Shown here: positions 20,964 through 41,863 of the stretch, piece by piece | How positions within the stretch are numbered: the first letter of the stretch is position 1 | How the letters are laid out: every line of letters starts with the position of its first letter | DNA from: an uncultured Clostridia bacterium | Lineage (GTDB): Bacteria > Bacillota > Clostridia > Oscillospirales > Oscillospiraceae | Direction of reading: 5' to 3' | DNA: 49,282 nt | Assembly (NCBI GenBank): GCA_946184165.1 | Contig: CAMHEN010000005.1 | Span: forward strand, 1-49,282 | Program-made: the position numbers and the translations under genes | The notes under the pieces: model-generated | What the model saw: the letters and a program-made list of their open reading frames with translations, nothing else | Databases searched by the model: none | What the model was told of the DNA's origin: nothing

Positions 20964-21141
20964 TCATACTAGAACCTCATAAAAACCTTTAATTTCTTAA
21001 AGGTTTTTATAGCACCGTAAGGTGCGTAGAGGTTCTGTATGAGACGCATTTTCAGCGCCTTTGCGCTGAAAATGCCGCGGGAACCGCGGCTTATCTGATT
21101 AAATCTTTTAATCAGATAATAGTATCAGCTTCTGATCAGAA
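20964..21141. repeat. intergenic multi-hairpin element A (six consecutive hairpins/palindromes)
   Basis: Outer TCATAC(t)AGAACCTC/GAGGTTCTGTATGA; inner 14-bp stem 20979-20992/20997-21010; GCACC-gtaa-GGTGC 21012-21025; 13-bp stem 21046-21075; GCCGCGG-gaa-CCGCGGC 21074-21090; 13-bp stem 21091-21119; palindrome TTCTGATCAGAA 21130-21141. Confidence 0.85.
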
Positions 21142-39508: not shown

Positions 39509-39582
39509 CGCGCTTCTGTTTTTGCCGACGCCCGGGAAGCGCTTGCATTCAGCGCAGCTTTTGACTATAATGACTATATGAT

Positions 39583-39775
39583 GGCGAAACGCCGCAAGGC
39601 GTTCCGCCGAGCCGCCTTGCGGCTCAGCGCCGCAGATTGGCTGCGGCGCCCTATATTCATTGCAATGAGCATCGCGCGAATGATTATGAAATCATTCGCT
39701 GCCAAACTTGTCGTTTGGCGGCGAAATCAATCGAATCCTCGATTGATTTCACCGTGCGATGATCATTATAATGAA
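39583..39775. repeat. intergenic multi-hairpin element B (seven consecutive hairpins/palindromes)
   Basis: Stems 39583-39608 (10/11), 39609-39625 (7), 39627-39649 (9), TCATTGCAATGA 39657-39668, 39676-39699 (10), 39701-39719 (7), 39723-39750 (12); imperfect 23-nt outer arms 39656-39678 vs 39753-39775, 19/23. Confidence 0.85.
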
Positions 39776-41596: not shown

Positions 41597-41654
41597 GCGC
41601 CAGTATCCGCTAATATATTGAAGACCGCCGGGGCGTCGCCCGGCGGTCCCAATG

Positions 41655-41822
41655 TGTAGACAAACCTCCACTCTCGTCATTCCGAGCCAGTGTCGCAACA
41701 CTGGCGTGGGAATCCGTTCCTCGGTAGAATGTCTGATTTGATGCGGCTTTCGGGGAATACGGATTGCCACACCAGTGACGTCGGTCACTGGTTCGCAATG
41801 ACATAAACGGACTTTGTCTACA
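41655..41822. mobile_element. MITE-like inverted-repeat element D, flanked by 27-bp direct repeats
   Basis: TIRs TGTAGACAAA (41655-41664) / TTTGTCTACA (41813-41822); inverted arms 41676-41717 vs 41759-41802, each with an internal hairpin (41687-41704; 41771-41792); flanks gaccgccggggcgtcgcccggcggtcc at 41623-41649 and 41829-41855. Confidence 0.7.
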
Positions 41823-41828
41823 GTCTGA

Positions 41829-41863
41829 GACCGCCGGGGCGTCGCCCGGCGGTCCTTTTTATT
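41829..41863 (+). terminator. intrinsic terminator
   Basis: ACCGCCGGG-gcgtcg-CCCGGCGGT followed by CCTTTTTATT. Confidence 0.75.

Follow-up and report, generated by a model that had tools for sequence, protein, structure and literature searches.

The window (the whole 49,282-bp stretch of DNA analysed here) contains what we consider likely to be a non-autonomous, MITE-like transposable element, one copy of a family, B, which we call the twin-cloverleaf element. It is best read as representing a class of MITE-like elements that is new in its architecture and that a putative transposase would move in trans. The copy in the window occupies positions 39567-39769 (~203 bp, counting an AT dinucleotide at either end) and lies between ORFs of 267 aa (- strand) and 111 aa (+ strand), both without a Pfam match. 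Its plan, AT-[AATGA·stem·3 hairpins·stem·TCATT]-GC-[AATGA·stem·3 hairpins·stem·TCATT]-AT, is that of two tandem cloverleaf units (Table 1). In an alignment of 56 family B copies (alignment A1), unit 1 reads AATGAyTATATG, hairpins 1-3, CATATAyTCATT, and is joined by GC to unit 2, which reads AATGAgCATCGG, hairpins 5-7, CCGATgATCATT. Each outer stem is built of five pairs (AATGA/TCATT, identical in both units), one mismatch and six further pairs. The terminal inverted repeats of the family, ATAATGA/TCATTAT, are perfect over this length and imperfect in their extended form, ATAATGAyyATnnGATGGCGAAA, and the loops of the copies are hypervariable.

The fold of the window copy is very strong, with folding-energy z values of -10.5 (+ strand) and -11.6 (- strand), and none of 200 dinucleotide shuffles folded equally well. 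All the palindromes that an earlier note on this DNA had named were recovered, at most a few bases from where it had placed them. That note had read the region as a branched 'crown' whose outer arms enclose the last three hairpins. The 23-nt arms (39656-39678 and 39753-39775, 83% complementary) do so and the branching is real, but the first three hairpins have an imperfect outer stem of their own (39569-39580 with 39650-39661), and the element therefore consists of two equal units rather than of one crown plus a tail. Compared with the extent it had proposed, 39583-39775, the element is slightly wider at the left and narrower at the right. The units also occur singly, unit 1 at three loci (L314, L044 and L102) and unit 2 at one (L100); these solo units could have arisen by deletion between repeats of the AATGA/TCATT motif.

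Table 1. Positions of the twin-cloverleaf element, its parts and two further features in the window.
Feature	Positions	Strand	Evidence or remark
Left AT, duplicated/core target dinucleotide	39567..39568	.	Empty sites; flank logo 97-99% AT
Unit 1, first cloverleaf: AATGACTATATG - three hairpins - CCTATATTCATT	39569..39661	+	Outer-stem covariation; solo copies
Unit-1 outer stem, 5' arm, one internal mismatch	39569..39580	+	Pairs with 39650-39661
HP1 GGCGAAACGCC-gcaa-GGCGTTCCGCC	39583..39608	+	
HP2 GAGCCGC-ctt-GCGGCTC	39609..39625	+	
HP3 GCGCCGCAG-attgg-CTGCGGCGC	39627..39649	+	
Central palindrome TCATTGCAATGA = TCATT-GC-AATGA, unit junction	39657..39668	.	Not an independent covarying hairpin
Unit 2, second cloverleaf: AATGAGCATCGC - three hairpins - GTGCGATGATCATT	39664..39767	+	Outer-stem covariation; solo copy
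HP5 GCGAATGATT-atga-AATCATTCGC	39676..39699	+	9/11 pairs changed on both sides
HP6 TGCCAAAC-ttgtc-GTTTGGCgg	about 39700..39721	+	4/8 pairs changed on both sides
HP7 GCGAAATCAATCGA-atcc-TCGATTGATTTCac	39721..39752	+	11/14 pairs changed on both sides
Right AT, duplicated/core target dinucleotide	39768..39769	.	Empty sites; flank logo
Family A copy: TCA-[TACTAG...TAGTA]-TCA, 158-bp core, two hairpin-bearing units	20964..21127	+	TNA duplication
Glycine riboswitch RF00504	48532-48648		56 bits; its genus-wide family serves as control

Family B is multicopy, occurs at unrelated sites and has no coding capacity. A 261-bp query recovered four other full-length or nearly full-length copies from its own genome (G000), at 83-100% identity, together with several further copies that are truncated or internally deleted. 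Among 60 related genomes searched, the family is present in 21 of the 37 that belong to the same genus and in none of the 23 from the order's other families. In all, 118 distinct full copies were extracted, most of which, flanking bases included, differ from 209 bp by no more than a few bases, and their flanks are mutually unrelated except for three pairs sharing one site. The exact core pattern matched at least 116 stretches in named MAGs, all of them uncultured Oscillospiraceae, Ruminococcaceae or Clostridiales (the titles of several mention rumen, sheep or goat gut); it had no match in IMG/VR, and none was found among plasmids and phages. With a covariance model, family B was detected in 13 of 251 genomes of the family and in 10 of its 106 genera, the weakest match being marginal, and its distribution is therefore patchy. 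The earlier note had allowed that homologues might lack covariation and related genomes further copies, or that the region might be an assembly artefact. Neither is the case, since further copies are many and covariation among them is strong (see below), and since near-identical copies lie at unrelated sites on many contigs, both in this genome and in independent assemblies.

Filled and empty versions of the same site were obtained by joining the flanks of a copy and looking them up in relatives, which gave pairs with up to 98% flank identity. In eight such comparisons the empty site has a single AT, and the filled site has one on either side of the element. At L065/L262, for example, the empty site reads GATCCT-AT-ATACTT and the filled site GATCCT-AT-[AATGA...TCATT]-AT-ATACTT. 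The pattern is repeated at L060/L263, L082/L265 and L092/L264, at L034 (against five relatives), L042 and L051, and at L011 versus L266, where family B lies inside element C at the target GGCGCT-AT-AAAAAG. Across copies, the flank logo shows AT on both sides in 97-99%, with a symmetric preference outside it for TT on the left and AA on the right, and the target of family B can be described as an AT within a TTATAA-like palindromic site. The left and right flanks of 115 copies show no correlation beyond AT, and the duplication is therefore at most 2 bp. At an AT target, duplicating AT (2 bp) and inserting TAATGA...TCATTA bluntly between A and T give the same sequence. A ninth comparison, L056 against L261, involves a GT target (left GT, right AT, empty GT); this copy fits blunt insertion without an extra mutation and slightly favours it. 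An origin by TA duplication of the IS630 kind (RUP-like, Tc1-mariner) was rejected, the target being AT and not TA and the IS630-type DDE domain (DDE_3) being absent from 19 of 20 genomes, every carrier tested included.

Comparison of the copies indicates what is held constant among them. In the double-cloverleaf structure 96.3% of cells are paired, and 49 of 81 pairs show two-sided changes, a result reached in 0 of 500 shuffles. Two-sided cells number 238 against 53 in shuffles, with all eight helices contributing, and sliding the partners leaves roughly 6-9 times fewer of them. The outer stems take part as well: in each, 5 of 11 pairs are two-sided, with 94.5% of cells paired in unit 1 (56 copies) and 95.4% in unit 2. 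Pairing is kept while the letters change, and what is preserved would seem to be the shape. Two other candidates for a selected structure, pairing between the two terminal inverted repeats and pairing across the centre of the central palindrome, were rejected, as neither shows covariation above shuffles. In HP1, an A-C mismatch (columns 26/45 of alignment A1) persists in a whole group of copies, the window copy included.

Strong covariation, although it serves as a criterion for ncRNA discovery, does not by itself prove RNA. The earlier note had offered an undescribed structured ncRNA as one of three options, and the strength of the fold and its covariation would suit a structured ncRNA gene or mRNA leader that is multicopy by chance and whose RNA fold is the selected feature, as would the terminal TATAAT, which in a subset of copies has a -35-like box 17 bp further out. 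RNA, however, tolerates G-U pairs but not A-C. On a tree of family B copies, we count 53 WC-to-GT against 58 WC-to-AC events (p = 0.70), along with 88 inferred WC-to-WC double changes, whereas 30 glycine riboswitches of the same genus contain 41 G-U against 1 A-C in a control that is rough, using a consensus structure and counting cells rather than events (the comparable family B cells are 62 and 82). The two strands fold equally well, and copies occur in all four orientations relative to their neighbour genes, as called with a crude ORF caller, which also led us to reject an RNA leader or terminator of fixed orientation. Rfam searches (gathering; E ≤ 1) returned nothing for the B element beyond one weak, chance-level match, and the element is dispersed by insertion at AT, being present or absent at orthologous sites. 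We accordingly regard an ncRNA or leader as very improbable. The lack of wobble bias, the equal folding of both strands and the lack of a fixed gene orientation together make the structure DNA-like, and indicate either that it is important in its DNA form or that it arises at the DNA level. More generally, the count of G-U against A-C is a cheap way to separate the two cases.

A structure that arises at the DNA level need not be selected. Template switching in quasi-palindromes during replication copies one arm onto the other, so that stems would be paired by mutation in any element rich in hairpins, and the mobile element would carry a shape without function. The 88 WC-to-WC double changes and the strand symmetry agree with this explanation, as do the alternative pair types, many of which are transversions on both sides, and the creation and maintenance of hairpins by template switching has been reported (PMC8794818). 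We nevertheless think it unlikely, if worth keeping in view, because none of the nine stem changes in three orthologous resident pairs is compensated and all nine are one-sided, because recent differences between copies are nearly all one-sided, because the A-C mismatch in HP1 persists throughout its copy group, and because the outer stems, whose arms stand ~70-80 nt apart, covary too. Between different insertions, compensated changes make up 0.04 of all stem changes at 2-8 differences and 0.44 at 33-45 differences, a share that rises with divergence. In the same three orthologous pairs, the unpaired sites, 48 of the 210 columns, account for 9 of the 18 changes, which is more per site than the stems received (p = 0.01). 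The pattern of stem changes, as seen in three orthologous pairs, is the one expected if residents decay and only well-paired copies found new lineages, and it is also compatible with a slow correction by template switching. Family B offers a testable case, either of DNA secondary structure selected in transposition or of palindromes that maintain themselves by template switching.

The architecture is repeated in further families. Family A, with a copy in the window, and family C (TACTATT...CAGTA) are built like B and unrelated to it in sequence. In 1.36 Mb (60%) of its own genome, family A has 12 near-full copies, nine of them at 98-100% identity, which indicates recent movement; no other of the families was active so recently. 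In the same 1.36 Mb, nine near-full copies of family C were counted, at 81-100% identity; this family is found at L011/L266 (G000:C4, C26) and about 9 other places in G000. A strict-criterion scan of G000 for hairpin clusters missed most family A copies. Among 24 copies of families A and C, the duplication is TNA, with T and A invariant and the middle base the same on both sides in 23. An AT duplication was considered for family A and rejected, since the base outside it is identical on both sides, hence TNA. A clean orthologous empty site for family A was not found, and an insertion of A into element C was used instead. Family D is present as four copies (L394, L399, L402 and L405) in G314, a genome of another genus; it is a twin-cloverleaf without similarity to B, and its flanks read TATTA/TTATA in all four copies. 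Family E, from G332 and one C/E composite in G000 (L195, L403, L415), has its left end in common with C. In both D and E the two-unit plan is repeated with different sequence. At G000:C75, one half of a C element continues into an E unit, which suggests that units are exchanged between families. The families also nest, A within C (L291) and B within C (L011).

Further hairpin modules lie inside the hairpin loops of A and B copies (L292, L294, L297, L298, L299, L045/L110), and in the window a 26-bp palindrome, GACCGCCGGGGCGTCGCCCGGCGGTC, occurs twice within 41623-41854 (at 41623 and 41829), with other hairpins between. Extra modules of the first kind (those at L294, L292, L297, L299 and L045) are what one would see if the elements were nested accumulations of small palindromic insertions with no functional architecture. 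This explanation is hardly credible, however, given that the length and order of the units are constant in most of the 118 copies, from several genera, and that families D and E share the two-unit plan in other sequence. A constant architecture raises another possibility, which we advance tentatively and hold to be doubtful: the element class could be recognised by DNA shape and not by sequence, the folded DNA being the substrate of one transposase or recombinase, or of several related ones. On that view the sequence has been completely replaced among families A-E, and the two tandem four-way-junction units and the short AT/TNA target rule persist.

We propose that family B is moved in trans by a DDE-type transposase that would cut with a 2-bp stagger, and that families A and C would be cut with a 3-bp stagger, as in IS5-family elements of the IS1031 group. 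Folded DNA, as a cruciform or a single strand, may be needed for mobilisation or may improve it, and only well-paired copies would go on to found new lineages, with resident copies decaying. A host function would not be needed as an explanation, and effects on neighbouring promoters would be side effects. It is also conceivable that transposition proceeds through a single strand, by an HUH/Y1 enzyme of the IS200/IS605 or REPIN-RAYT kind that reads the hairpins, the left AT then being target and the right AT an element end. The hairpin-rich ends suit such an enzyme, an AT duplication is indistinguishable from a retained cleavage dinucleotide, and the GT-target copy L056 fits. This route is nonetheless improbable: Y1 transposases are absent from G000, G007, G019, G002, G036 and other carriers (mostly incomplete MAGs), the target preference is symmetric (TT left, AA right), as for a double-strand cut, and the sister families make true 3-bp TNA duplications. 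The partner of REPIN/RAYT elements is a Y1 transposase, which many family B carriers lack, and Y1/RAYT was rejected as the mobiliser, its presence not being correlated with family B carriage. For IS607 there was no match over the cut-off; weaker matches were rejected as longer (mostly 500-600 aa) serine-recombinase-like frames that are present in non-carriers too. No ORF bounded by matching ends, as would mark an autonomous partner, was found in 1.36 Mb of the own genome and at other loci. The genomes covered by these enzyme and ORF searches are mostly incomplete MAGs.

Family B can be placed among known mobile elements. It works like a MITE and has the sequence features of one, with terminal inverted repeats and a target duplication seen at empty sites (formally also a blunt A|T insertion), a classification that stops short of a MITE family of a named IS. 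The earlier note's view that this is not a simple MITE thus stands for the internal architecture, which is unusual, and not for the behaviour, which is that of a MITE; of its three options, a non-autonomous element is the one that the evidence backs. In the usual description, bacterial MITEs are mostly derived by deletion and retained for nothing but their ends. What is conserved here is the shape of the entire interior, in families without common sequence, and the covariation is DNA-like. MITEs of the IS5 family, IS1031 group, resemble families A and C in their short terminal inverted repeats, 3-bp TNA duplication, small size, intergenic position and lack of an ORF. A 3-bp TNA repeat is the rule for that group (PMC12016507), and family B departs from it in duplicating AT. 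The titles and abstracts of the bacterial MITE literature searched do not mention a fixed two-cloverleaf interior.

More distant systems share single traits with family B. Yeast mitochondrial GC clusters have an AG dinucleotide target repeat and show merger and shuffling of hairpin units (PMC4478555), and the RHEs of sponges conserve stems and vary loops (PMC2800124). Like family B, GC clusters (GC42), double-hairpin elements and sponge RHEs are mobile palindromic DNA under structural constraint; unlike it, they are organellar and mostly consist of one or two hairpins of tens of bases, with no two-unit four-way-junction plan and no evident homology or descent. The pneumococcal BOX elements are interspersed modular repeats with strong secondary structure that are thought to be MITE-like (PMC3049150). 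By description, however, BOX has conserved sequence modules, A-(B)n-C, whereas the plan of family B is fixed at two units, its stems covary and it lacks a tandem module in the middle. REPIN/RAYT and REP sequences are likewise short palindromic intergenic mobile DNA (PMC3116915), and REP palindromes measure 20-40 bp and mostly carry GTAG or CGTC tags (PMC3733652); that the element is not a REP/ERIC unit, as had been noted earlier, is borne out. Measured against the open-access literature, with a precedent in subscription journals possible, the novelty lies in the plan of two cloverleaf units and in the fact that it is kept while the sequences are unrelated.

The ends of family B read TATAAT inwards. 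A -35-like TTG lies exactly 17 bp outside this TATAAT in 15 of 110 cases on the left, against 3.0 at other spacings (p = 7e-7), and in 10 of 110 on the right, against 2.5 (p = 3e-4). A fraction of the insertions appear, from these spacings, to sit in -10 boxes, for which the AT-rich target preference suffices as an explanation; insertion there could rebuild TATAAT from the element's own end. By landing on -10 boxes and rebuilding them, the elements may rewire promoters in uncultured ruminant-gut bacteria. Truncated left ends of family B are found 17-18 bp behind -35-like boxes at L315, L318, L320 and other loci, and these are possibly domesticated promoters.
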